A stretch of DNA of 64,000 nt from Nitratireductor sp. GISD-1A_MAKvit (GTDB taxonomy: Bacteria > Pseudomonadota > Alphaproteobacteria > Rhizobiales > Rhizobiaceae), in assembly GCF_040819555.1 (NCBI RefSeq), contig NZ_CP161920.1, positions 62,001 through 126,000 on the forward strand, written 5' to 3'. Position 1 is the first letter of the stretch; every line of letters starts with the position of its first letter. The position numbers were made by a program, and so were the translations under genes. Under the pieces are notes generated by a model. It saw only the letters and a list, made by a program, of their open reading frames with translations, ran no database searches and was not told the DNA's origin. Below are positions 28,953-42,195 of the stretch, piece after piece.

Positions 28953-28963
28953 GAAACGGACTT

Positions 28964-28987
28964 GCGAAAACGTTCTCATGTTTTCGC
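28964..28987. promoter_or_regulatory. Inverted repeat with second LacI-type half-site upstream of TRAP genes
   Basis: GCGAAAAC (28964-28971) and GTTTTCGC (28980-28987) form a perfect 8-bp inverted repeat. Within it, CGAAAACGTTCTCA (28965-28978) matches the operator-like site at 28009 at most positions. It lies about 75 bases before the TRAP binding-protein start, in the only spacer of the kinase-TRAP unit. It could be an internal operator or an RNA hairpin. Confidence 0.45.
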
Positions 28988-29060
28988 TCCACAAGTCCCG
29001 GAAGTGCCTGAAACAACGACTGGAACCACACAGGGCAAAGACCCGCAAAAGGAGGAACCC

Positions 29061-30059
29061 ATGAACCAGCTGACTTCAACTTTCCGGCTGCTCACCGCCG
29101 CCGCAGCCATGACAACCATGCTTACGGGAGTGGCACTGGCTCAGGAAATCAGCATTCGCATTGCCACGGTGAATTCGCCCACCAGCGAATCATGGAAAGG
29201 CGTGATGGCGACGGCAGAGCGCGTCACCGAACGCACCGACGGCCGCGTCAAATTCGAGGGTTTCCCTTCGGGTCAGCTGGGCACCACCACGGATTCGATC
29301 GAACAGGCCAGCCAGGGTCTGCCGGTCATGACCTTCACCTCCGCCTCATTCCTGTCCAGCTTCGGGGTACCGGAGCTTTCGATCGTCGAGGGGCCCTTCA
29401 TTGTCTCCAGCACCGAAGAAGCCGAAACGCTCGCCTTCTCCGATCTGATGCAGGGTTACTATGACCGACTTGCCGAGATGGCCGGCATTCGCGTTGTCGC
29501 CATCAACTGGTTCGATGGTCCACGCCACATGATCGGCACTGCCGGCTATTCATCACCCGAGGACCTGAAGGGTGTGCGCATGCGGGTGCCGCCGGTTGAA
29601 ACCTGGCTGAAGACATTTGAACCGCTGGGCGTGGTGGCCACCACGGTTGAAGCCGCAGAGGTCTACTCTGCCCTTTCACAGGGAGTGGTCTCCGCAGCGG
29701 AAAGCCCCCTCACCGGACTACGCGCCTCAAAATGGCCCGAAGTGGCCAAGGAGATTACGCTGACCGGACACTTCAATCTCTTCACCGGCTGGGTGATGAG
29801 CGAAGCCGCGTTTCAGCAGATCAGTGAGCAGGACCGCGCCATCCTTCTGGAGGAATTTCGCAAGGGTGGCCAGAATCTGACCCAGGTCTCCGCAGATCTC
29901 GAAGCAGAAATCCGCTCCGAATTCGAAAGCCAGGGCGTTACGTTCCACGAGGCGGACCTGGATGCCTACCGCAAAGCGACAGCGAGCTTCTATACGAGCT
30001 TTCCGAACTGGCCCGATGGCCTTTACGATAAGGTTCGCGCGGCAGCGACTGGCAACTGA
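29061..30059 (+). CDS. dctP: TRAP transporter solute-binding protein, DctP family
   Basis: A 332-residue periplasmic protein with a Sec signal peptide (LLTAAAAMTTMLTGVALAQ) and the DctP fold features: FEGFPSGQLGTTTDSIEQ, GPFIVSS, and the ligand-arginine region LKGVRMRVPP near residue 170. The ATG follows a strong GGAGGAACCC. It captures a carboxylate-bearing ligand for the DctQM permease. Placed with FrlB/FrlD-type genes, it may bind a sugar-amino acid or related acid, which would be unusual for Amadori import. Confidence 0.9.
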   Translation: MNQLTSTFRLLTAAAAMTTMLTGVALAQEISIRIATVNSPTSESWKGVMATAERVTERTDGRVKFEGFPSGQLGTTTDSIEQASQGLPVMTFTSASFLSSFGVPELSIVEGPFIVSSTEEAETLAFSDLMQGYYDRLAEMAGIRVVAINWFDGPRHMIGTAGYSSPEDLKGVRMRVPPVETWLKTFEPLGVVATTVEAAEVYSALSQGVVSAAESPLTGLRASKWPEVAKEITLTGHFNLFTGWVMSEAAFQQISEQDRAILLEEFRKGGQNLTQVSADLEAEIRSEFESQGVTFHEADLDAYRKATASFYTSFPNWPDGLYDKVRAAATGN

Positions 30060-30066
30060 TTGCCAG

Positions 30067-30096
30067 GGGCCGGGTGCCTTCTGCGTCGCCCGGCCC
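30067..30096 (+). promoter_or_regulatory. Hairpin downstream of the TRAP binding-protein gene
   Basis: GGGCCGGG (30067-30074) pairs perfectly with CCCGGCCC (30089-30096). It begins 7 bases after the binding-protein stop and precedes the small permease gene. No T run follows, so it likely protects the upstream message, as in the other transporter operons here. Confidence 0.6.
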
Positions 30097-30128
30097 ATCG
30101 TTCATCCAGTAGGGAGGCTGGCGAAACG

Positions 30129-30600
30129 ATGAAATTTCTGCGTGCCTTGATAGGCTTTGCTGGCATCACCCTGCCGGCGCTGCTTCTGGCAGCGCTGGTT
30201 GCCATTGTGGTGGCGGACGTGGCCGCACGAAACCTCTTCGCCATATCAATTCTCTGGGCGCAGGAATTCGCGGTCATTCTGCTTGGAGCCACCGTCTGGC
30301 TCGGCCCTGTCTGGCGCGGCCATGCGAAATCAGCTTTTCGGCGTCTCCCTCTTCGTGGACCTGCTACCGCCCCGCCTCGCTTTTGCCGCCCGCCTTCTGG
30401 CAGACATGCTGGTTCTGCTGATCGCTGCTCAGGTCATCCGCGCCGCATTTGCGCAGATCACAACTGCCCGCTTCACGGTATTCCTCTCGCTCGGCTGGCC
30501 AAAATGGATCATGGCTGCGCTGCTGGCAGCGGGCATGACCATGGTCGTTCTTAGTCGCTTGCTGGAGATGGCCGTCAACATCAGGAACCAGCGTCCGTGA
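30129..30600 (+). pseudogene. dctQ: TRAP transporter small permease, DctQ family, frameshifted as read
   Basis: The ATG at 30129 gives MKFLRALIGFAGITLPALLL and a second helix; the DctQ-type stretch VWLGPVWRGHAK is followed by a frame change. The next frame continues NQLFGVSLFVDLLPPRLAFA, the conserved DctQ loop and helices. Removing one A from AAA at 30327-30329 yields a continuous 156-residue, four-helix protein. Its stop overlaps the GTG of the large permease. With neighbouring TRAP genes intact, a sequence error is the simplest explanation. Confidence 0.85.
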
Positions 30601-31871
30601 CCATCGTCGCCATCACCTTTGTCCTGCTTCTCGTGCTCGGCCTGCCGATTGGCTTTGTCATGCTCGGCGCGTCCATGGCCTATTTCGCTCTCAACCCGAT
30701 GATGACGAGCCTTGTCGCACAGCGCATGTCTTCGGGGCTGGAATCCTTTCCTCTGCTGGCGATTCCGCTTTTTGTCGTAGCCGGGGCAGCAATGGCGCGT
30801 GGCGGCATTGCCGAGCGGCTCTATGCCTTTTGTGAAACTCTGGTGGGCCACTGGCGCGGTGGGCTGGCGCAGGTTGCCGTTCTGAACTCGGTTTTCATGG
30901 GTGCGATGTCGGGTTCTGCAAACGCAGATGCCGCCATCGATGCACGCACCATCGTGCCGGTGATGCGGTCCCGTGGCTACTCCAACGCCTACGGGTCTGT
31001 GGTAAGCGCCGCTTCGTCAATGATCGCTCCGATCATGCCCCCCTCCATAGCCTTGATCGTCTATGGATTGTTGACGAACACCTCGATAGGCCGCCTATTT
31101 GTCGGCGGTGTCATTCCGGCCATTCTGATCGCGGTCGTTTTGATGCTTACAGTGCGATGGACCGCCAAGCAGATGCAGCTTGAACCGGTTCGCGAAACGC
31201 GGGCCGACCGGCACGAAATCCTCCTGAAAGGACGAGCGGCACTGTGGGGACTTGCGATGCCGCTCATGCTGCTTCTGGGTCTGCGGAGTGGCTGGTTCAC
31301 GCCGACCGAACTGGGCGCCGTCGCGGCCGTTTATGCATTTCTCGTCGGTGTCTTGATCTACCGCGGGCTGACGCTCAGCGACACGATGGCATTGCTGTCG
31401 GAATCAGCCGCCACCACGGCCGGTGTTCTTTTCATTGTCGCTTCCGCATCGGTGTTCTCTCTGATCCTCAGTCTGGAACAGGTGCCTCAGCAGCTTGTCA
31501 CCGCCCTTCTGTCGATATCCGAAAACAAATATGTCGTTCTTCTGGTTCTCAACATAGCGTTGCTTCTGCTCGGAACGGTGTTCGAAGGGCTTGCCATCAT
31601 TGTCATCCTCGGCCCGCTTCTGGTCCAGGTCGCACAGGGCCTCGGTGTCGATCCGGTGCATCTCGGTGTGGTGCTGGTCTTCAACACCACGATCGGCTCC
31701 CTCACCCCTCCTGTCGGCACGGTAATGTTTACCGTCTGCTCGATCACCCGCTGCTCGGTGGAAGACTTTACGAAGGCTTTCGTCCCTTTCCTCGCCTCAG
31801 CGATTGGCGCCCTCTTTCTGCTCACCTATGTGCCTGCGCTGGTGACGTTTCTTCCCAACCTGGTGTTCTGA
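30597..31871 (+). CDS. dctM: TRAP transporter large permease, DctM family
   Basis: A 424-residue membrane protein of about 12 hydrophobic segments. DctM motifs include VLGLPIGFVMLGASM, AMARGGIAERL, GSANADAAIDARTIVPVM and NTTIGSLTPPVGTVMF. It is the sodium-coupled translocation subunit, partner of the DctQ and DctP proteins encoded upstream. The GTG at 30597 overlaps the DctQ stop. It is the last gene of this unit and converges on the aldolase gene 89 bases away. Confidence 0.92.
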   Translation: MTIVAITFVLLLVLGLPIGFVMLGASMAYFALNPMMTSLVAQRMSSGLESFPLLAIPLFVVAGAAMARGGIAERLYAFCETLVGHWRGGLAQVAVLNSVFMGAMSGSANADAAIDARTIVPVMRSRGYSNAYGSVVSAASSMIAPIMPPSIALIVYGLLTNTSIGRLFVGGVIPAILIAVVLMLTVRWTAKQMQLEPVRETRADRHEILLKGRAALWGLAMPLMLLLGLRSGWFTPTELGAVAAVYAFLVGVLIYRGLTLSDTMALLSESAATTAGVLFIVASASVFSLILSLEQVPQQLVTALLSISENKYVVLLVLNIALLLLGTVFEGLAIIVILGPLLVQVAQGLGVDPVHLGVVLVFNTTIGSLTPPVGTVMFTVCSITRCSVEDFTKAFVPFLASAIGALFLLTYVPALVTFLPNLVF

Positions 31872-31960: not shown

Positions 31961-32722
31961 TCACTTCATCTGGACAGCGAGCGTATCTGCCGCTTTGACC
32001 AAAAGCCCCAGATCCACACCGCTGGCAACAAACTGATAGCCCCAGTCGCGGTAGCGCTTCGCATCCTCCGGATTGGTGGCGAGGATGCCCGCCGGCTTTC
32101 CCATCTCCCTCAGCTGGTCCACCGCCCCACGCAATGCCCTCTGCACGTCCTCTTGGCCGGGATTGCCCAGATGACCGAGCGATGCTGCGAGATCGGACGG
32201 ACCGATGAAGACACCATCGACCCCGTCGACGCAGGCGATTTCACCCAGCGCCTCCAGCGCTTCTCCCGTCTCGATCTGCACGAGGAGACAGACTTCGCGA
32301 TTGGCAATATTGAAATAATCCTTGGCTCGACCGTAGCGGCTTGCGCGCGTGCTGCCGGCCACCCCGCGGATGCCCTCCGGTGGATAGCGCGTGGCAGCGA
32401 CTGCGGCGCGTGCTTCGTCAGCATTTTGCACGAATGGCACAAGAACCGTCTGCGCACCAATGTCGAGCACGCGTTTGATCAGCACCTTGTCATTCCAGGC
32501 CGGACGCACGATGGCTTCGGCAGAACCCCTGGACGCCGCCTGCAACAGCGGATAAAGCCCCGCCACTTCCACCGGCGAGTGCTCGCTGTCGAAGAGCAGC
32601 CAGTCGAAACCGGCATCCGCCAGCGCCTCGGCAGCGATGGGGCTGCACAGGCTGCTCCACAGACCGATCAGCGTGTCGCCGGCCAGAAGCCGCTTCTTGA
32701 ATGTGTTTTCCAGGCTCCTCAC
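31961..32722 (-). CDS. hpaI: HpcH/HpaI family aldolase
   Basis: A 253-residue class II pyruvate aldolase. Family motifs: GLWSSLCSPIAAEALADAGFDWLLFDSEHSPVE in two halves near residues 17-49, then VPFVQNADEA, QIETGEALE (metal Glu) and GVFIGPSDLAASLG (metal Asp). It would cleave the hydrated ring-cleavage product to pyruvate and a semialdehyde. I chose the GTG at 32722, giving the usual family N-terminus; the longer frame lies inside the upstream hydratase gene. It is the last gene of the operon. Confidence 0.88.
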   Translation of the reverse strand: MRSLENTFKKRLLAGDTLIGLWSSLCSPIAAEALADAGFDWLLFDSEHSPVEVAGLYPLLQAASRGSAEAIVRPAWNDKVLIKRVLDIGAQTVLVPFVQNADEARAAVAATRYPPEGIRGVAGSTRASRYGRAKDYFNIANREVCLLVQIETGEALEALGEIACVDGVDGVFIGPSDLAASLGHLGNPGQEDVQRALRGAVDQLREMGKPAGILATNPEDAKRYRDWGYQFVASGVDLGLLVKAADTLAVQMK

Positions 32723-32730
32723 AGCGGGCC

Positions 32731-33513
32731 TCAGACGAACTGGACGGCAACGCTGCCGAGCGGGCCGAAATCCGCATGCAGCGTATCGCCCTTCTGCGCC
32801 CAGACAGGCCGCGTGAAGGAGCCCGACAGCATCATGTGGCCAGGCTCCAGCGTGATATCGAAGGGCGCGAGCTTGTTGGCGAGCCACGCAATCGCCATCG
32901 CCGGATGACCGAGCACACCGGCGGCAAGACCTGTCTCCTCGATCTCTGAATTACGATAGAAGACCGCACCGACCCAGCGCAGGTCCACCTCGTCGGGCCG
33001 CACGGGCCGGCCACCGAGCACGATGCCGGCAGCGGCGCCATTGTCGGCAACCGTATCGAAAATCTTGCGCGGCTCGGTAACACGCGCATCGATGATCTCG
33101 ATGGACGGCACCACATATTCCGTGGCGCGCAGCACGTCGATCAAACCCACATTCGGTCCCTTGAGCGGTTCCTTCAGAATGAAAGTCAGCTCCGGCTCGA
33201 CGCGCGGAACGCAGAAATTCTCAAAGGGAACCTTCGCGCCGTCATTCAGGATCAGATCATCGAAGAGATAGCCGTAATCCGGTTCATCGATCTTCGAGCT
33301 GGCCTGCATTGCCTTGGAGGTGAGTCCGATCTTGTGACCGATGATTTTAGCGCCTGCCTTGACCCGTTCCTCGGCCACCGCCGAGGAGATGGCGTAGGAA
33401 TCTTCGATCTGGATATCGGGGAACATCTCCGAGGGGCGGCGACCCTGCACCTTGGTGCGATGGCTTTCGAGCAGGGAGCGAACCGCTTGTGCGCGCTGTT
33501 CTTCGCTAAGCAT
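32731..33513 (-). CDS. hpaH: 2-oxo-hept-4-ene-1,7-dioate hydratase (HpaH-like)
   Basis: A 260-residue member of the fumarylacetoacetase/hydratase group (HpaH/MhpD). Visible motifs are GHKIGLTSKAMQ, EPELTFIL (metal-binding Glu pair) and VPSIEIIDARV. It adds water to the 2-oxo-4-ene diacid made from a meta-cleavage product. It precedes the aldolase by 8 bases and follows the aldehyde dehydrogenase. The order dehydrogenase-hydratase-aldolase matches the homoprotocatechuate route. Confidence 0.88.
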   Translation of the reverse strand: MLSEEQRAQAVRSLLESHRTKVQGRRPSEMFPDIQIEDSYAISSAVAEERVKAGAKIIGHKIGLTSKAMQASSKIDEPDYGYLFDDLILNDGAKVPFENFCVPRVEPELTFILKEPLKGPNVGLIDVLRATEYVVPSIEIIDARVTEPRKIFDTVADNGAAAGIVLGGRPVRPDEVDLRWVGAVFYRNSEIEETGLAAGVLGHPAMAIAWLANKLAPFDITLEPGHMMLSGSFTRPVWAQKGDTLHADFGPLGSVAVQFV

Positions 33514-33586: not shown

Positions 33587-35041
33587 TCAGAGTTTTACGC
33601 AGACATTGCGCAGTTCGGTGTAGAATTCGAGCGAGTGAACGCCGCCCTCACGGCCGATGCCCGAGCGTTTGGAGCCGCCAAAGGCGGTGCGCAGGTCGCG
33701 CAGGAACCAGCAATTGACCCAGGTGATGCCTGCATCGATGCGGCCCGCCACGCGGTGGCCACGCGACAGATTGGTCGTCCAGATCGAGGTCGCCAGCCCA
33801 TAGGGGCTGTCATTCGCCAGCTGGATCGCCTCTTCCTCATCATCGAAAGGCGTGATGTGCGTGCAGGGACCGAATATCTCGTCTCGCACAACGGGCGAAT
33901 CTTCCGGGAGGCCGGTCCAAACCGTCGGCTCCACCCAGCTTCCGCCTTCATAGCCCTGAATGGAGGGCACGCCGCCACCGGCGAGAATCTCCGCGCCACC
34001 GGTCTTCGCCTTCTCATAGTAGGAGAGCACCTTGCGGCGATGCTCCTCGCTGATGAGCGGCCCCATGGTCGTTTTCTGGTCGAACGGGTCGCCATAGGCA
34101 TAGGCTCTCGCTCTTGCCGCGAGTTTCTCGGCCACCTGATCGAAGATGCCGCGCTGCACGTAAAGGCGCTCGGTGCCAAGGCACACCTGCCCCGTATTGG
34201 CGAAACAGGACCGGCCAAGCCCCTCTATGGTGATGTCGATGTCCGCATCGTCGAACACGATGCCGGGATTCTTGCCGCCAAGCTCCAACGAAACGGGGCG
34301 CACGCCACGCGAGGCCGCCGCCATGATGGCTTCGCCCGTCGCCGTTTCACCGGTGAAGGTGATCGCGTCCACGTCGGGGTGGCTGGACAGAAATTCACCC
34401 GTGCTGCCGCCGCCAAAGCCATGCACCACATTGTAAACGCCTTCGGGAATGCCCGCTTCGTTCATCACCTCGCCGAGCAGCGTTGCGGTGGCCGGTGTCT
34501 CTTCCGATGGTTTCACAACGACGGTGTTGCCACAGGCAAGCGCCGGCGCGACCTTCCAGGTCATCAGGAGCAGCGGCAGGTTCCATGGACAGACGACGCC
34601 GATGACGCCGCGCGGCATGCGGATCGCATAATTGAGCGCCCCTGCTCCGTCCGGCGTCGCCATCTCGAAGGCTTCGGTCGCGACGCTGGCGATCTGGTCG
34701 GCGAAAACGTTGAAATTGGCTGCGCCGCGCGGGATGTCGATATGGCTGGCGATGGAAACAGGCTTGCCCGTATCCATGATCTCGGCGCGCAGAAACTCAT
34801 CGAAACGCGCATTGATGCCATCGGCCACCTTACGCAGAAGCGCAATGCGTTCCTGCACGCTCAACCGCGCCCATGGCCCCGTGAGCGCCTTTTTTGCCGC
34901 CGAAACGGCCGCGTCCACATCCTGCTCGCCGGCAGCGGAGACAAGCGACTGCACCTCGCCCGTGGCGGGAAAACGGTTTTCGAACAGGTCGCCGGTGCCA
35001 TCGACAAAGCGGCCATTGATGAAATTCTGAATACGCTTCAC
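33587..35041 (-). CDS. hpaE: 5-carboxymethyl-2-hydroxymuconate semialdehyde dehydrogenase (HpaE-like ALDH)
   Basis: A 484-residue aldehyde dehydrogenase. The catalytic Cys lies in NTGQVCLGTERL, the general-base Glu in SLELGGKNPG, and the cofactor loop in FTGETATGEAI. The GTG at 35041 has AAGGACGAG upstream and gives the usual start (MKRIQNFINGRFVDG). Its role would be to oxidise the semialdehyde from extradiol cleavage to the dicarboxylate, using NAD(P). Similarity to HpaE is by overall pattern and by gene order, so other aromatic semialdehydes are possible. Confidence 0.85.
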   Translation of the reverse strand: MKRIQNFINGRFVDGTGDLFENRFPATGEVQSLVSAAGEQDVDAAVSAAKKALTGPWARLSVQERIALLRKVADGINARFDEFLRAEIMDTGKPVSIASHIDIPRGAANFNVFADQIASVATEAFEMATPDGAGALNYAIRMPRGVIGVVCPWNLPLLLMTWKVAPALACGNTVVVKPSEETPATATLLGEVMNEAGIPEGVYNVVHGFGGGSTGEFLSSHPDVDAITFTGETATGEAIMAAASRGVRPVSLELGGKNPGIVFDDADIDITIEGLGRSCFANTGQVCLGTERLYVQRGIFDQVAEKLAARARAYAYGDPFDQKTTMGPLISEEHRRKVLSYYEKAKTGGAEILAGGGVPSIQGYEGGSWVEPTVWTGLPEDSPVVRDEIFGPCTHITPFDDEEEAIQLANDSPYGLATSIWTTNLSRGHRVAGRIDAGITWVNCWFLRDLRTAFGGSKRSGIGREGGVHSLEFYTELRNVCVKL

Positions 35042-35066: not shown

Positions 35067-35751
35067 TCAGAGTTCGGGATCGCCTGCGGTGAGGAAATCC
35101 CACATGCGCTCAAAGATGCGGCCGGCCTTCGTGGCCCGCTCGCTTGCCCCTTCGGCGGAAAATGTCGGCGGCTCGTCGCCAAGCCCGGCTGCCAGCGCTT
35201 CCAGTTCGATGCGGCATGCATCTTCCAGATACCAGGCAAGCACCACCGCCTCCTCCAGCGTGTCGCCCGCCGTCACCGCGCCGTTGCCGCGCATCAGCAC
35301 GGCGCGCGCATCGCCCATGGCGGAGAAGACACCCCTCGCCTTTTCATCGTCACGCACCAGCTGCGGGTCGTCCCAGAGCGGCGGTTCCGGCGCGAAATAG
35401 GCGCCAAAGCCGTGACGTGCCTTCGGAGACCTGCCAAGCGCTGCAAGCGCCATCATTTTCGGCGACATGAAGCGCGCCACGCCGCCGACCGTCGGCCGGT
35501 TGCGATAGATTTCCTGATGAATGCGCACCTCGCCCAAAACGCCATCGGGCAGCGGACCGCTGACCGGCACCACCGTGCAGGCCCTCGCCCGGCGCAACCA
35601 GCCCCATCGGTTGGGGCGGACAGACAAGAAAGCGCTCTGCATCGATGCGCGCCGAGCAATGGCCATAGGCGTGGGCGAGACCATGCCTGCCCAGCGCCCG
35701 CGCCGCCACGCGCACCCTGCGCGCCAGATCGTCCATATCGGTCTGTGTCAC
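35067..35751 (-). pseudogene. Class II aldolase/adducin family protein, frameshifted as read
   Basis: The start (MTQTDMDDLARRVRVAARALG, with GLAHAYGHCSAR) reads from 35751 to VAPGE; the remainder (ACTVVPVSGPLPDGVLGEVRIHQEIYR to the end) is in the next frame. Removing one base from CCC at 35582-35584 joins them as VAPGEACTVVPV, giving 227 residues. Members cleave or decarboxylate substrates; some decarboxylate dihydroxylated aromatic or ring-cleavage acids. Here the usual HpaG/HpaF isomerase-decarboxylase is missing, so this protein may fill a decarboxylation step. That role is inference. The indel is likely a read error. Confidence 0.8.
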
Positions 35752-35754
35752 GGC

Positions 35755-36612
35755 TCAGTCCTCGAACGCGGCGATGTTGGGCTTCGCACCCCAATGGCAG
35801 AAGCCGACAGGCTCGAAGGCGAACTGCCGGTCGCGCCAAAGGGGTTCGTCGTGGATTTCGCAGACACCGGTCGAATATTCGAAAGTCATGCCATCAGGGC
35901 CGCTGAAATAGAGGAACTGCGCAGACGAAGTGGGATGGCGTCCCGGACCGAAAGTGATGTTGATCTGCCGGTCGCGAATGAAGTTGGTCGAGCGCTGGAT
36001 GTCGTCGGTCGATTCCACCTGATGATTGATGTGCTGAATGCCGGCCTTGTGGTAGGGGAAGAGCGCGATCGTGTGGTGTATCGAGCCAAGCCGCATCAGC
36101 GGTGCATCGCCGATGCGGTCGGAAACGCGCGCGTTGCAGACCGTGGTCCAGAATTTCTCATCCCGCTCCAGATCGCTGGAGCACAGGCCCACATGGCTGA
36201 AGCCGGTAATGCCGGCATCGCGGGTGCCGTGATAGCGCTGGCCGGAAAAGGCCGGGCGCACGACAAATTCGATGCTGTTGCCGGTCGGGTCGCGGAACCG
36301 GATGAACTCACGCACGTGGCGCGCCTCGCATTCCTCGCGGGTGCCGTAATAGACCTCCTGCTTCAACCCTTCGAGCGTGGCGGCCGCAGCATGCAGATCG
36401 GCAGACGAGCCGAGTTCGAATGCGGTCACCTGGTCTTCCGGATCACCTTCGAAGTAGCACAGCGTGTGGTCGCGGCTGTCGGATTTGAAATGCACCGCAC
36501 CCTTGCGATGTTCGGACACTTCCAGCCCTAGAATGTTTTGCGCAAACCAGACCGCCCCCTCCAGGTCGCGCGTGCCGAGACGGCAATAGACCACGTCCTT
36601 CAACTCGATCAT
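35755..36612 (-). CDS. VOC family extradiol ring-cleavage dioxygenase
   Basis: A 285-residue two-domain type I extradiol dioxygenase. The 2-His-1-carboxylate iron site is readable as H140 (FSHVGLCSS), H197 (INHQVES) and E245 (MTFEYSTG), with the supporting stretch HHTIALFP. It would open a catechol-type ring beside the hydroxyls using O2. The gene ends 3 bases before the class II aldolase start and follows a paralogue lacking the metal ligands. Together with HpaE/H/I homologues this defines a meta-cleavage pathway; the actual catechol is unknown. Confidence 0.88.
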   Translation of the reverse strand: MIELKDVVYCRLGTRDLEGAVWFAQNILGLEVSEHRKGAVHFKSDSRDHTLCYFEGDPEDQVTAFELGSSADLHAAAATLEGLKQEVYYGTREECEARHVREFIRFRDPTGNSIEFVVRPAFSGQRYHGTRDAGITGFSHVGLCSSDLERDEKFWTTVCNARVSDRIGDAPLMRLGSIHHTIALFPYHKAGIQHINHQVESTDDIQRSTNFIRDRQINITFGPGRHPTSSAQFLYFSGPDGMTFEYSTGVCEIHDEPLWRDRQFAFEPVGFCHWGAKPNIAAFED

Positions 36613-36629
36613 GTCGCTTCTCCTGTCGG

Positions 36630-37484
36630 TTACGCGCCCGAAAACTCGGGCTCATTGGTGGGAGAACCCCACGCGCAGTGGGAAAGGGCCGTATCGGGAA
36701 ACTGGCGCGGCGTGCGCTCGGGCTCCGCCTCGCTCATGCCCGTGGAATAGCTGAACAGCACATCGCCCGGCCCGCGGGTGGCAACGAAGATTTTCTCCGA
36801 TGCCGGCTGACGGCCCGGACCATGGACGACGGGCATCTGCCGCGCCTGCAGGAAATAATGGTTCTGCATCACGTTGTTGATCGACTCCACGGCGAAGTCG
36901 ACACCCAGTATGCCGTCGCGGGCCGACGGATAGAGCGCGATGCGGTGATGCGCGCCGTCGATGCGGATATAGGAGGCATCGCCGGCCCAGTCGGAGACGG
37001 CTCCGCCCAGAACGCGCGTCCAGAAATCCTCATTGGCAGCTATGTCGGTACAGGCCAACGACACGGAAGAGATTTCCGTGATGCCCGCATCGCGCGGACC
37101 ATGATAGCGCCAGCCGGATGTGAGCGGACGCCAGACGAGTTCGACCGTCACGCCGTTGGGCGCGGTGGCGGCAATCCCTTTCTTGATCTTGCGTGCTGCG
37201 CAGGCCGTCTCGTCGAGCGCGGTCACGGCAAATCCTTCTCCGCGCAGCCGTTCGGCCATTGCTGTCAGGTCTTCGTCGCGGGCGACGGTCAGGGCGACCG
37301 CGTCCCCCTTCTCGGCTGCGCTGAAACAGAGCGAATAAGCCCGCGCATCGGAGCGGAAATAGGCGCGCTCCTCATCCCGTGCAAACTCCTGCAGCCCGAC
37401 AATTTCGGTGGCGAAGGCAGACGCCTTTTTCAGGTTGTCGGTGGCCAATCGCACATAGCGAAGATCGCGATAGGGTCCGCTCAC
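36630..37484 (-). CDS. VOC family extradiol dioxygenase paralogue lacking all metal ligands
   Basis: A 284-residue protein that aligns without gaps to its downstream neighbour over the C-terminal domain (SGWRYHGPRDAGIT versus SGQRYHGTRDAGIT; FSYSTG versus FEYSTG). At the three iron-ligand positions it has S140, F197 and S245 instead of His, His and Glu. It cannot bind iron in the usual way, so it may be a structural or regulatory subunit of a heteromeric dioxygenase, a substrate-binding protein or a different enzyme. The fold, length and hydrophobic core are intact, and it is kept in the operon 17 bases ahead of the active copy. Confidence 0.85.
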   Translation of the reverse strand: MSGPYRDLRYVRLATDNLKKASAFATEIVGLQEFARDEERAYFRSDARAYSLCFSAAEKGDAVALTVARDEDLTAMAERLRGEGFAVTALDETACAARKIKKGIAATAPNGVTVELVWRPLTSGWRYHGPRDAGITEISSVSLACTDIAANEDFWTRVLGGAVSDWAGDASYIRIDGAHHRIALYPSARDGILGVDFAVESINNVMQNHYFLQARQMPVVHGPGRQPASEKIFVATRGPGDVLFSYSTGMSEAEPERTPRQFPDTALSHCAWGSPTNEPEFSGA

Positions 37485-37546: not shown

Positions 37547-38515
37547 TCAAAGCCCCGATGCTTCGGCTTCCAGCTTTTCGAGCATCGGGGCTTTGGTGCG
37601 CCATTCCTTGTACCAGTTGTCGATGGCCTCGCCGAAGAAGGCGCGGTCGATCGTGATGACCGGCACTTCCGTGCCTTTCAGCTTTTCGAGATAGTCGGCA
37701 TCGATTTCGGCGTAGGAGCCCACCAGCGTGTCGAGATGGGCGCTGAGCACGTCTTCGATGATCGCCTGATCCTCGGCGGGGACGGCACCCCATTTGCGCC
37801 CGGAGCCAACGGCGATCATGGGGAACATCATGTGGTTGGATTCGATGATCGTGCCCGCATGCTCGTAATATTTGCTGTTCCAGGTGCCTTCGAAGTCGAT
37901 CTGCATGCCATCGACCTGCCCGTTGGCGAAGGCATCATAAAGCGCCGGCAAAGGCATGGGTGTCGGAGCAGCCCCCACCTTGACCCAGAAGTCGAGCTCG
38001 GGCGCGAAGGGCACTGTGCGGATTTTCTTGCCCGAAAGCCCACCGACATCCTTCACCTCGCCGCGCATGACGATCTGGCGCAGGCCGGCCATCGCGTAGC
38101 CGAAACCTTTGAGGCCGAACTTGTTGACCCCGTCGAGCAATTCGCCAGCGGTCTCGCCCTTCAGGAGCTTTTGCGCGCCGGCAACGTCCTTGACGATATA
38201 GGGTGCGAGGAAAATGCCGTAGTTCGGATCGCGGTTGGCAAACTCACCGAGCGTGAGGAAAGCAAAGTCCAGCGCACCCGTCTGCAATTGCTGGAGCATC
38301 TGCGCTTCGTTTCCAAGCTGACCGCTCGGGAAGATCAGAAGCTCGACGCGTCCGTCGGTCTTTTCCTTGAGTTCATCGGCGATCGTGTTGGCCGTCACCG
38401 TCCACTGATGCGGCGGCGGCGTGATGAGACCGAGCCGGTACTCGGCGGCGCCAGCGACCTGCGTCGCCAGCATGACACCGGCAATGGCAAGCGCGCCCGC
38501 TATCTGTTTCAGCAT
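37547..38515 (-). CDS. dctP: TRAP transporter solute-binding protein, DctP family (aromatic cluster)
   Basis: A 322-residue DctP protein with signal peptide (MLKQIAGALAIAGVMLATQVAGA). Family features are LLIFPSGQLGNEAQML, a LKG-type ligand loop (LSGKKIRTVPF) and a DGMQIDFEGTWNSKYYE segment. The ATG at 38515 has GGGAGGAAAAA upstream; the longer frame lies inside the dehydrogenase gene. It is expected to bind the aromatic or aliphatic acid that feeds this operon. A 14-bp perfect hairpin overlaps its stop codon. Confidence 0.9.
   Translation of the reverse strand: MLKQIAGALAIAGVMLATQVAGAAEYRLGLITPPPHQWTVTANTIADELKEKTDGRVELLIFPSGQLGNEAQMLQQLQTGALDFAFLTLGEFANRDPNYGIFLAPYIVKDVAGAQKLLKGETAGELLDGVNKFGLKGFGYAMAGLRQIVMRGEVKDVGGLSGKKIRTVPFAPELDFWVKVGAAPTPMPLPALYDAFANGQVDGMQIDFEGTWNSKYYEHAGTIIESNHMMFPMIAVGSGRKWGAVPAEDQAIIEDVLSAHLDTLVGSYAEIDADYLEKLKGTEVPVITIDRAFFGEAIDNWYKEWRTKAPMLEKLEAEASGL
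37549..37594 (-). promoter_or_regulatory. 14-bp perfect hairpin at the 3' end of the TRAP binding-protein gene
   Basis: AAAGCCCCGATGCT (37549-37562) and AGCATCGGGGCTTT (37581-37594) are perfectly complementary, with an 18-base loop. The structure spans the last codons and the stop on the - strand. No T run follows. It likely shields the binding-protein message from 3' decay. Confidence 0.65.
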
Positions 38516-38529
38516 GTTTTTTCCTCCCG

Positions 38530-39480
38530 TTAGCGATGCTTGGAGCTGCTCCGGCTTCCCGTGCCGGACAGCAGATTGAGAATTTCGGGAACCTGCGCAT
38601 CCCGCAGGGCGGCAAGCGCTTCGGGATCCGCCAGATCGGGGCTTTGCGCGACACCGTCGATGAGAGCGGCGCGAGTATCCGCGCCGAGCTGGGGCGCGCC
38701 GAGCGAGGCCCACCACTTTTCCACCTCCGGCCCCAGATCGTCGAAGAACTTCGCCAGGCCGGCATCGCCGCCGGCCAGATGAAAGATCGCCGTCGGTCCG
38801 GTCACGCACCAGCGTGCGGCAAGCCCTTTGGTCACCGCCTTTTCAATGTCGTCAACCGACGCAACGCCTTCTGCCGCCAGATGGACCGCCTCGCGCCACA
38901 GCGCAGCCTGAAGACGGTTGACCAGATGGCCGGGCATTTCCCGTTTGAGCCGCAACACCGTCTTGCCCAGACCCGTATAAACGGCGTCGGCCAGATCCAT
39001 CGCCACCGCGCTCGTCTTTGCGCCCGCACAGATTTCCACCACCGGCATGAGGTATGGCGGATTGCAGGGATGGCCGATCACAAGGCGTTCGGGATGGGAC
39101 AGAGCATTCTGAATAGCGCTCGGCGACAGACCCGATGTGCTGGATGCGATCACCGCATCTGCCGGCACATGCCGCTCGACTTCGGCAAGCACCTCTCTCT
39201 TGAGTTCCAGCCGCTCCGGAAGCGCCTCCTGCACGAAGGCGACGGCCCTCTCAACGTGGTCGAGCCGCGCAATGTGCGAGGGCGGCGCCTCTGTACAGTC
39301 GCCTCCAAGCCGTTTGAGAACGGGCAGAGCCTTTTTCCAGAGAAGCGCGAGGCGACCGGCTGTCTCGGGTGCAGGATCGTAGACCTGCACCGGGTGCCCT
39401 GCTGCAGCAAATGCAGCCGCCCACCCGCAGCCTATGGTTCCCCCTCCGACGATCAGAACAGGTGCTTTCGTTTCAGCCAT
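38530..39480 (-). CDS. 3-hydroxyacyl-CoA dehydrogenase family NAD-binding protein
   Basis: A 316-residue dehydrogenase with N-terminal Rossmann motif (VLIVGGGTIGCGWAAAFA), the SSTSGLSPSAIQ strand, a GHPCNPPYLMPVVE active-site His segment, and a C-terminal helical domain. The HxxNPP pattern is that of the short carnitine/L-gulonate dehydrogenase and lambda-crystallin subgroup, so a free hydroxy acid may be the substrate rather than an acyl-CoA. The ATG at 39480 overlaps the DctM stop, placing it between the two TRAP membrane genes and the binding protein. It probably oxidises the imported hydroxy acid. Confidence 0.85.
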   Translation of the reverse strand: MAETKAPVLIVGGGTIGCGWAAAFAAAGHPVQVYDPAPETAGRLALLWKKALPVLKRLGGDCTEAPPSHIARLDHVERAVAFVQEALPERLELKREVLAEVERHVPADAVIASSTSGLSPSAIQNALSHPERLVIGHPCNPPYLMPVVEICAGAKTSAVAMDLADAVYTGLGKTVLRLKREMPGHLVNRLQAALWREAVHLAAEGVASVDDIEKAVTKGLAARWCVTGPTAIFHLAGGDAGLAKFFDDLGPEVEKWWASLGAPQLGADTRAALIDGVAQSPDLADPEALAALRDAQVPEILNLLSGTGSRSSSKHR

Positions 39481-40751
39481 CACAGAAGCTCCTTCAGGCC
39501 CGTTGCCAGCCATGGGAAGAAGGCCAGGAGAACCAGAACCGCGGCGACAGCCAGAAAGAACGGCGTGACCAGCCATGCGATGCGCTCCGCCTTCACTCCG
39601 CCCATCAGTGCGGCAGCAAAGAGCCCCGTCCCCACTGGCGGCGTGAGCAGGCCCAGTGTCAGGTTCAGACAGACGATGACGCCGAACTGGAACGGGTCGA
39701 TGCCATACACATCCGTCGCGACCGGCAGCAGAACCGGGACCACGAGGATGATGGCGGGGATCGGGTCCGTGACCATGCCAAGCATCAGGAGAAGCAGGTT
39801 GAGAAGCAGCAGGAAGACGATGGGCGAAGTGGTGATGAGCTGCAGCCCATCCGCCACCCGCGCCGGCAGGTTTTCAAAGGTGATGACCCAGCTGAAAACC
39901 TGCGCCGCCGCTATGAGAAAGAGCACCACGGCAGCACTGCGCGCGGCATTGGCAAAGGCCGGGAAAATGTCGGCGACGCTCATCTCGCGATAGACGAAAA
40001 GCCCCGTCAGCATCGCCGCAAGCGTGGCGATGGCGGCAGCTTCGGTCGGCGTTGCCAGCCCGCCGAGAATGCTGCCGATGATGACAGCAGGAATGGCGAG
40101 CGCGGGAAGCGCATCGAACAGTGCCGCGCAGCGTTTTTTCATCGTCAGCCGTTCCGAACGCGGAAAGGCATAGAGCCTGGCAAAGACGGCAATCACGACA
40201 ATGAAGGCGATGAACATCATCGCGCCTGGCACGATGCCTGAAATGAACAGGTCGCCAATCGGCATCTGCGCGACCACGCCAAAAATGATGAACAGCATGG
40301 ACGGCGGGATGATCGGAGCCAGAAGACCGCCGGCCGCCGTGATGCCCACTGACACATCGCGCGGATAGCCGGCCTTTTCCATCTCCGGCACGGCGATCTT
40401 CGACATGATGGTGATCTGCGCCACGGTCGAACCGAGGATGGACGCCATCAGCATGTTGGCGACAAGATTGACGTAGGCAAGACCGCCGCGCACCGAGCCC
40501 AGCAATGCGAGCGACAGGCTCATGAGACGCCGGCCAATGCCGCCGGCATTCATGAATTCGCCAAGCAGAATGAACATGGGCAGAGCCAGGAGGCCGTAAT
40601 TTTCGAGCCCGCCGAAGAGCTGCTGGGCATAGGACTGGAGCAGCACCGTGTTGCCGCTGACAGCGATGAACACCAGCGCAGTCGCCGCCAGGACAAAGGC
40701 AATGGGCAGGCCAACCAGCAGAAACGCAAGGAATGAGCCGGCAATCGTCAT
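39480..40751 (-). CDS. dctM: TRAP transporter large permease, DctM family (aromatic cluster)
   Basis: A 423-residue membrane protein with about 12 hydrophobic segments and motifs LLVGLPIAFVLAATAL, GEFMNAGGIGRRLMSL and NLTLGLLTPPVGTGLF. I chose the ATG at 40751, which overlaps the DctQ stop; the upstream in-frame extension lies in that gene. It carries the solute across the inner membrane, coupled to sodium or protons. Confidence 0.92.
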   Translation of the reverse strand: MTIAGSFLAFLLVGLPIAFVLAATALVFIAVSGNTVLLQSYAQQLFGGLENYGLLALPMFILLGEFMNAGGIGRRLMSLSLALLGSVRGGLAYVNLVANMLMASILGSTVAQITIMSKIAVPEMEKAGYPRDVSVGITAAGGLLAPIIPPSMLFIIFGVVAQMPIGDLFISGIVPGAMMFIAFIVVIAVFARLYAFPRSERLTMKKRCAALFDALPALAIPAVIIGSILGGLATPTEAAAIATLAAMLTGLFVYREMSVADIFPAFANAARSAAVVLFLIAAAQVFSWVITFENLPARVADGLQLITTSPIVFLLLLNLLLLMLGMVTDPIPAIILVVPVLLPVATDVYGIDPFQFGVIVCLNLTLGLLTPPVGTGLFAAALMGGVKAERIAWLVTPFFLAVAAVLVLLAFFPWLATGLKELL

Positions 40752-41323
40752 CCTTCGACCTCCCCGCTCCGCAGCCGCGCCACAAGATTGGCCCATGCGT
40801 GAATTGCACCGCATAGAAAGAACACCGGCAGGATCAACAAGAACCAGACCTTGCGCATGCCGATTGTCGTCGTTGGCTCCTGATAGATGAAGTTGAAGCT
40901 CTGCTGGCTGAACGTTTCGACCGAGCCGGCGGAAAGCACACCCACCGGGTCGAACCAGTTCCAGAGAATGACGCCAAAGATGCCGAAGAAAACCAACAGT
41001 GCGACATCCACCCCGATCAGGAGCGCTCTGCGGCATTTGGCCGGCATCATGTCGGTGAGAAGTGTCATGGATATGTGATTGCGGTTGCGGATGCCAATGG
41101 AGGCACCGATCAGTGCTGCCCAGATCATCACATAGATCGCCAGCTCATCCACCCAGATCAGAGGCGAACCCAGGCTGCGCGTCACCACATTCAAAAGCAG
41201 CAACCCAAAAACGGCACAGAGCAGAAGCCCGGCACAGTACCACTCGATGGACGCCAGGCGGGCACTGACCCGCGCCAGCGCACCAATCCGCTCGTCTCGT
41301 TCTTCAGACAATACGCTCGACAT
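40748..41323 (-). CDS. dctQ: TRAP transporter small permease, DctQ family (aromatic cluster)
   Basis: A 191-residue protein with four hydrophobic segments and the DctQ pattern WVDELAIYVMIWAALIGASIGIRNRNHISM. It is slightly long, owing to a polar N-terminus (SEERDERIGALARV) and an extended loop between helices three and four. It is the first gene of the - strand operon, 158 bases from the divergent GntR gene with two AT-rich palindromes in between. Confidence 0.9.
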   Translation of the reverse strand: MSSVLSEERDERIGALARVSARLASIEWYCAGLLLCAVFGLLLLNVVTRSLGSPLIWVDELAIYVMIWAALIGASIGIRNRNHISMTLLTDMMPAKCRRALLIGVDVALLVFFGIFGVILWNWFDPVGVLSAGSVETFSQQSFNFIYQEPTTTIGMRKVWFLLILPVFFLCGAIHAWANLVARLRSGEVEG

Positions 41324-41481: not shown

Positions 41482-42195
41482 ATGGCAGAGATCCTCGTCA
41501 ATATGCGGTACGACGGACCGGAACGAACGATCGCCGAGCGGGCCTACAGGCTGCTGCGGGAAGACATCATTTCAGGCGCGCTCGCACCGGGCCTGAAACT
41601 CAAGATCGAAATGCTCCGCACGCGCTATGGGCTGGGCGCTGCTCCTATCCGCGAGGCGCTTGCGCGGCTTTCCAGCGACCATCTGGTCAAGCTGGAGGGG
41701 CAGCGCGGATGCGAAGTGGTCCCCATGTCCGTCGGGGATGCACGCGACATTGCAAATATGCGCAAGCTGCTTGAGGTCGAAGCCCTGCGCATATCGATCG
41801 TCAACGGCGATGAGGAATGGGAAAACGGTCTTGCAGCCGCGTTTCATCGGCTGGAGCGGCTGGAACGGACGATAGATCAGGGCATTGACGATCTGGCCGC
41901 ATGGGAGACCCTCAATCATCAGTTTCACAGGGCGCTGGTTGCGGCCTGCGATTCCCCATGGCTCCTGCGCATGCGCCAGCTCATGTTCGACCAGCATGAG
42001 CGATATCGACGCCTCTCCCGCGTCAAAACCGTCGCCACCCGAGACATCAGCCTTGAGCACCGCGCCCTCTTCGAAGCCGCACTTGACCGCGATGCCGACA
42101 AGGCCGTCACCGTTATGGAAACACATATCGGACGGACCACGGATGCGGTCGTACAGGCATTCGCAAGGCACGAACCGGCAGAGACAGGCGGTTAG
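41482..42195 (+). CDS. GntR family transcriptional regulator, FadR/FCD subfamily (aromatic cluster)
   Basis: A 237-residue regulator with winged HTH (LKIEMLRTRYGLGAAPIREALARL) and an FCD sensor domain whose likely metal or ligand residues fall in ETLNHQFHRALVAACDSPWL and LEHRALFEAALDRDADKAV. It is divergent from the TRAP/meta-cleavage operon and most likely represses it in the absence of substrate or a pathway acid. GGAGGAAACGAGCGGA precedes the ATG. Confidence 0.88.
   Translation: MAEILVNMRYDGPERTIAERAYRLLREDIISGALAPGLKLKIEMLRTRYGLGAAPIREALARLSSDHLVKLEGQRGCEVVPMSVGDARDIANMRKLLEVEALRISIVNGDEEWENGLAAAFHRLERLERTIDQGIDDLAAWETLNHQFHRALVAACDSPWLLRMRQLMFDQHERYRRLSRVKTVATRDISLEHRALFEAALDRDADKAVTVMETHIGRTTDAVVQAFARHEPAETGG

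Follow-up and report, generated by a model that had tools for sequence, protein, structure and literature searches.

A metal-ligand-less VOC paralogue encoded beside a type I extradiol dioxygenase in Alphaproteobacteria: a candidate non-catalytic subunit

Two adjacent genes of Nitratireductor sp. GISD-1A_MAKvit raise the question of what a paralogue without metal ligands does beside an intact type I extradiol dioxygenase of the VOC superfamily. Both genes are located on the minus strand of the analysed stretch of 64,000 nucleotides (designated here as the window, to which all coordinates refer), which derives from a genome of 4.1 Mb in two contigs. The upstream gene (36630..37484, GTG start), designated here as the dead copy, encodes a protein of 284 aa with Pfam Glyoxalase and BphC_D1 matches, and its stop codon is followed after 17 nt by the ATG of the intact, or active, copy (35755..36612; 285 aa). 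The deduced proteins share 38% identity over 287 alignment columns, and no others encoded by this genome are matched by the HpaD profile at an E-value of 1e-8. The closest named relatives are three Nitratireductor records, in which the dead protein is 90-92% identical.

A sequence-only reading of the window had described two neighbouring VOC genes, the dead copy being the first, with shared RYHGxRDAGIT and FxYSTG motifs; order, strand and motifs were all confirmed in both paralogues. The same reading had assigned the iron ligands to H140, H197 and E245, replaced by S140, F197 and S245 in the dead copy. The assignments at columns 140 and 245 were correct, whereas that at 197 was not, the true pair being H194 and G194. 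H194 of the active copy (within 'GIQH') aligns with a conserved histidine of PDB chains 3b59 and 3hpv, which we take to be an iron ligand of both, and column 197 was rejected as a ligand column because 14 of the 21 intact relatives that lack a dead neighbour have phenylalanine there. The proposed loss of all three ligands nevertheless holds after this correction: the dead copy carries S140, G194 and S245 (codons near 37067-37065, 36905-36903 and 36752-36750, minus strand) and the active copy H140, H194 and E245 (near 36195-36193, 36033-36031 and 35880-35878, minus strand). The active copy also possesses H180, H226 and Y235, the last two being the presumed counterparts of the acid-base His and of the Tyr in known extradiol enzymes. 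In the dead copy, H179 and H180 are retained, and H226 and Y235 are replaced by Q and A, respectively. Judged from these residues, the dead copy is a paralogue within the family and no working member of it.

Fold predictions based on 12-row alignments yielded a two-domain VOC fold for both the dead (pLDDT 71.0) and the active copy (pLDDT 70.4), the models being unreliable in the last 30-odd residues and in the linker near 122-131. For the active copy, the moderate-confidence model displayed the two-domain arrangement of paired beta-alpha-beta-beta-beta units, and its best PDB match was the extradiol dioxygenase 2zi8. The dead copy was likewise related by fold and homology to type I extradiol dioxygenases; its best match (3b59) is titled a glyoxalase, and the others among the best 50 Foldseek matches are ring-cleaving dioxygenases. 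The best 50 matches of each model were VOC-fold proteins, nearly all of the type I extradiol class, and the LigB-class fold of AmnAB was not among them. The active copy scored below the curated cut-offs of the NCBIfam HpaD, BphC, C23O and HsaC models, with a best score of 85.3 bits against a cut-off of 366.45 (BphC).

The comparison set comprised 30 dead copies, defined from residues as copies without the full HHE set, the active partner of each, and 21 intact copies that have no dead copy beside them. Some rows are near-copies, as in the case of G654 and the Tistrella plasmid record, and 26 pairs remain after these are dropped. The HHE set was present in all 30 paired and all 21 unpaired active copies. 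Conversely, 29 of the 30 dead copies lack all three ligands and one retains H140; none carries H194 or E245. The residues found instead are S, A or G (or the single H) at 140, G, S, E, A, Y or N at 194, and S, T, V, A or G at 245. H226 is lost from every dead copy and Y235 from 29, and five residues (H179, H180, M206, Y210 and W272) are invariant in all 30. Four pairs that were found later exhibit the same loss of ligands.

The dead type is patchily distributed. It was detected in 9 of 397 genomes of the order to which the window belongs with a single-protein query (E-value of 1e-20) and, with a profile search at 1e-40, in 5 of 151 genomes of the family, 7 of 385 of the class and 5 of 398 of the phylum. 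The profile search at 1e-40 also returned 6 of 195 genomes in the order of G1013, 4 of 7 in that of G564, 3 of 3 in that of G429, 2 of 10 in the family of G131 and none of 54 in the order of G1001; in the family search with the profile at 1e-40, no dead-type match was obtained in two other genomes of the window's genus. These samples overlap, each takes in the genome of the window or that on which it was centred, and in the larger searches scoring was limited to the best 6 to 16 candidates per genome, so that misses are possible. Five named genome records carry the pair, which is also plasmid-borne, as read in detail in Tistrella mobilis pTM2 and one Pseudosulfitobacter pseudonitzschiae plasmid, and 38 of the 44 matching plasmid records belong to Pseudosulfitobacter. 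Active copies without a dead neighbour were observed on plasmids of Cupriavidus, Paraburkholderia and Caballeronia. All pair-bearing genomes from the genome surveys fall within the class of the window, and Tistrella and Pseudosulfitobacter are also alphaproteobacterial. The pair is real and conserved in many Alphaproteobacteria. A metagenome-assembled genome labelled Mesoflavibacter (L025) carries a pair nearly equal to that of G771, a member of the window's class (dead-copy dN of 0.008), and this label is therefore suspect and probably wrong. No fused dead-active protein was present among the matches read.

The two genes are tightly linked. With the active start placed at the homologous codon, it lies between -4 and +49 nt from the dead stop codon in 29 of the 30 pairs, and in 16 of them the genes overlap by 4 nt. 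In the exception, G224 (L080 9341-10177 and 11931-12779), 1744 nt, in which a class II aldolase gene and a regulator are located, separate the active copy from a dead-clade copy with H140, E194 and T245, an arrangement that possibly represents an intermediate state. Sporadic, unlinked occurrence of the ligand-less form had been put forward in the sequence-only reading as grounds for abandoning a joint function; unlinked occurrence was not seen, although the distribution is indeed patchy.

Frequent degradation in relatives, named in the same reading as a further ground, was not seen either. None of the matches listed in the surveys contained an internal stop codon, and in 13 comparisons dN/dS ranged from 0.08 to 0.33 for the dead copy and from 0 to 0.14 for the active copy, the values being rough in the three comparisons in which dead-copy dS is at least 0.75, with the closer ones in agreement. 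The dead copy is not a pseudogene, because such ratios contradict that status. A single decayed remnant of the pair was identified on a Leisingera plasmid (L114 8915-9557), where a weak match to the tail of the dead copy (E-value of 0.003) is followed by a frame-broken, truncated active copy.

Phylogenetic analysis of 71 rows placed 26 dead copies in one clade (100/99) and their 26 partners in another (100/95), with the 19 other intact copies outside both. When six other VOC dioxygenase-like rows were added as an outgroup, 20 dead copies (99/94) and the partner clade (100/96) were recovered, and the dead clade, with long branches, fell outside all intact copies. In the 71-row analysis, a grouping of dead copies with their partners was not rejected (p-AU 0.331), and any date for the duplication is therefore tentative. 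Three tandem pairs from this subfamily, with all ligands in both copies (G602, G691 and G768; L038, L041 and L045), account for six of the 21 unpaired rows and represent a separate duplication according to the trees. The mean distance between dead copies is ~2.7 times that between partners, and 49 columns are conserved among the former compared with 122 among the latter.

Tree distances of dead and active copies are strongly correlated across the 26 pairs (Mantel r of 0.906; none of 9999 permutations as high), and the two trees share 17 of 23 splits (maximum of 3 in 2000 null replicates). At the 14 of 15 control loci with a long enough gene for 2-hydroxymuconic semialdehyde (HMS) dehydrogenase, the dead-active correlation was 0.917, compared with 0.907 between the dead copy and HMS dehydrogenase and 0.705 between the dead copy and the class II aldolase; given both, the partial dead-active correlation was 0.73. 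As the HMS dehydrogenase control performs nearly as well, much of the mirror-tree signal is attributable to operon co-inheritance, and the mirror tree was set aside as proof of binding. Co-inheritance is clear, but by itself is no proof of contact.

A further signal was found in the columns that each paralogue has lost. Of the 115 columns conserved in unpaired active copies, both members of the pair retain 42 and both have lost 6. Another 41 have disappeared from dead copies but not from their partners, which is what would be expected of a fast-changing paralogue that no longer catalyses. Five columns show the opposite pattern, being lost in partners and kept in dead copies: 43 (mostly R to K), 176, 206, 210 and 282. 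Y210 is present in 21 of 21 unpaired copies and 30 of 30 dead copies, yet in only 3 of 30 active partners, and M206 in 19 of 21, 30 of 30 and 5 of 30, respectively. In the dead copy of the window, the M206-x3-Y210 element (36855..36869, minus strand) places the two residues one turn apart in a predicted helix spanning 202-214. Because this pattern was noticed before it was tested, all 278 columns were included in the test. Column 210, with nine changes in partners and none in dead copies (p of 7.1e-5), passes the Bonferroni limit of 1.8e-4; column 216, with eight changes to none (p of 2.1e-4), lies just above it (Benjamini-Hochberg q of 0.029), and columns 206 and 282 were individually not significant after correction over the 278 columns. 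Parsimony assigns 1760 changes to the dead copies and 932 to the partners, i.e. about twice as many per column, and a nine-to-zero imbalance in the opposite direction at column 210 is therefore unlikely to have arisen by chance. The 206/210 rule also holds for both members in all four later-found pairs, one of which (L118) probably stems from the same species as L024, since their identity values are equal.

In our reading, columns 206-216 would form a subunit contact that every chain of a homo-oligomer needs, but only the dead chain of a hetero-oligomer. The reciprocal loss of Y210 and M206 points to a division of labour within a heteromer. The earlier proposal had left the choice between a heteromeric dioxygenase and a new binding role; it is partly supported, the heteromer being made the more likely of the two by the loss of these residues from active partners.

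The gene pair forms part of a minus-strand operon. Downstream of the active copy lies a class II aldolase/adducin family gene (35067..35751), encoding a candidate decarboxylase of the ring-cleavage product, followed by genes for HMS dehydrogenase (33587..35041; TIGR03216, 816.1 bits, cut-off of 693.25), an HpaH-type hydratase (32731..33513; TIGR02312, 357.8 bits, cut-off of 351.5) and an HpcH/HpaI family aldolase (31961..32770; TIGR02311, 320.7 bits, below the cut-off of 368.8). The class II aldolase gene is split over two frames in the window, with a break near 35585, and forms one 228-aa frame in the three other Nitratireductor records; the split is due either to a recent frameshift or to a sequencing error. 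Upstream of the dead copy, the minus strand encodes the TRAP transporter solute-binding protein DctP (37547..38521) and a 3-hydroxyacyl-CoA dehydrogenase-like oxidoreductase (ORF bounds 38530..39576, the true start probably being further in). These are followed by a TRAP large permease ORF (39480..41036, start uncertain), a TRAP small permease (40748..41323) and, divergently on the plus strand, an FCD/GntR-type regulator (41482..42195), all three named by position in Tistrella pTM2 and Nitratireductor L021. In the pTM2 operon, DctP (L026 8950-9922) is annotated in two pieces, possibly reflecting a frame break. A second TRAP-like set (28962-31871, plus strand), comprising a solute-binding protein and small and large permease ORFs named from reading of the translations only, converges on the end of the operon.

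Twenty-two neighbourhoods, selected for holding the pair, were compared using labels taken from best BLAST matches to three annotated plasmid operons and the window. Ten are of the TRAP type seen in the window (L021, L024, L025, L026, L080, L088, L089, L090, L110 and L111), three carry HMS dehydrogenase and HpaH-type genes with no transporter recognised (L081, L095 and L113), two have ABC transporter genes (L083 and L084) and six contain, within the stretch read, a Rieske oxygenase set together with an amidohydrolase (L027, L085, L086, L087, L096 and L112); in L082, nothing except LysR-type and partial hydrolase matches was recognised. The types of transporter, decarboxylase and oxygenase thus vary among these neighbourhoods. 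A candidate decarboxylase was present in 21 of the 22, being of the class II aldolase type in 15 and an amidohydrolase in 6. A class II aldolase-type gene also accompanies five of seven unpaired active copies (L028, L029, L092, L094 and L097), and none was recognised around the other two (L031 and L093). The dead copy thus goes with a particular clade of active enzyme, and not with a particular composition of the pathway. The step shared throughout appears to be cleavage of the ring with subsequent release of CO2; together with the parallel of CmtC and CmtD known from the literature, this suggests, by analogy, a carboxylated catechol as the substrate.

Taken together, these data are best explained by the two genes encoding subunits of a heteromeric type I extradiol dioxygenase, which we regard as probable. 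In this heteromer, the downstream protein would carry the Fe site and perform ring cleavage, and the upstream protein, an old duplicate without a metal site, would be retained within that oligomer in a structural or regulatory role. The two proteins would bind each other, and the dead subunit would supply in trans the contact surface lost by its partner, namely the M206/Y210 face and perhaps Q216 and a C-terminal Glu, the last of which cannot be placed because it falls in the unreliable end of the models. A carboxylated catechol would be cleaved and its product then decarboxylated. A stronger version, held here only tentatively, is that the pair represents the first obligate heteromeric dioxygenase of the VOC superfamily, with the iron site in one paralogue and the contact face (M206/Y210 helix, Q216 and C-terminal Glu) in the other, neither being complete alone; that face would then act on the active site of the partner or hold the oligomer together. 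Counting against a heteromer are the existence of close unpaired relatives of the active enzyme, the patchiness of the pair, the separated genes of G224 with H140 kept, and the three and five partners that retain Y210 and M206, respectively.

The main rival, which we consider rather unlikely, is that the dead protein functions separately and not as an oxygenase, i.e. as a binder, a sensor, a chaperone for substrate or product, or a metal-free enzyme of the next step. Metal-free VOC folds exist as binding proteins, the small residues (S/A/G) at the ligand columns of most dead copies may leave a pocket, and the co-inheritance signal needs no binding; the lack of a tautomerase in the Tistrella operon table points weakly the same way, that table being incomplete and genes of ~60 codons falling below the ORF limit. 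However, the residues at the lost-ligand columns differ from one dead copy to another, which is not the picture of a conserved new pocket, five of the seven unpaired-active neighbourhoods have the same class II decarboxylase type without a dead copy, and a separate role leaves the partner-only loss of Y210 and M206 unexplained. The idea of a second enzyme with another metal site or cofactor could draw on H179 and H180, present in every dead copy, and on E at 194 in 6 of the 30, but no conserved set of His, Asp or Glu replaces H140, H194 and E245 among the 30, and the loss of H226 from all of them and of Y235 from 29 runs counter to it; a second metal site was rejected on these grounds and this alternative is improbable. 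As for a decaying duplicate kept by operon linkage only, the greater divergence and fewer conserved columns of the dead copies and the Leisingera remnant agree with it, but it is contradicted by the dN/dS values and the stop-free matches, by five invariant residues in 30 copies and by the maintenance of one clade across rearranged operons, and we give it hardly any credence.

The proposed heteromer would differ from the type I extradiol dioxygenases BphC, XylE/C23O, HsaC and HpaD, whose known forms are homo-oligomers of one chain. These share the two-domain fold and the ligand set of the active copy (H140/H194/E245), but the pair in the window has a ligand-less second chain encoded next door. 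CmtC, a 2,3-dihydroxy-p-cumate dioxygenase, is encoded in the cmt operon with a class II aldolase-family decarboxylase, a hydrolase, a hydratase and an aldolase, a gene set resembling that of the lone-copy plasmid locus of Caballeronia; the likeness to CmtC is one of neighbouring genes. In their place, the operon of the window encodes a TRAP transporter, HMS dehydrogenase and HpaH/HpaI-type enzymes, and we know of no ligand-less partner gene in the cmt operon. Both genes of the pair are annotated as 'VOC family protein' in Tistrella and Pseudosulfitobacter, a shared label that hides a possible two-subunit enzyme, of which the active gene may fail when expressed alone. As the enzyme occurs both with and without a dead partner, the reason for that partner is testable. 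Extradiol-type ring cleavage by two different subunits is performed by LigAB (type II) and PnpCD/HapCD (cupin type), whose folds are unrelated to that of the window pair and whose partner subunits are no VOC paralogues. The closest parallel is 2-aminophenol 1,6-dioxygenase (AmnAB/CnbCaCb; type II, LigB class), in which one operon encodes an active subunit together with a paralogue that lacks metal ligands; in the pair described here, active and ligand-less paralogues are likewise encoded and conserved together, and as the folds are unrelated, the parallel is functional and not one of membership. Extradiol dioxygenases with a dead subunit are known in the LigB/AmnAB class and, to our knowledge, none has been described in the VOC class. 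If the heteromeric reading is true, the VOC class would also have reached the dead-subunit arrangement of the LigB class.
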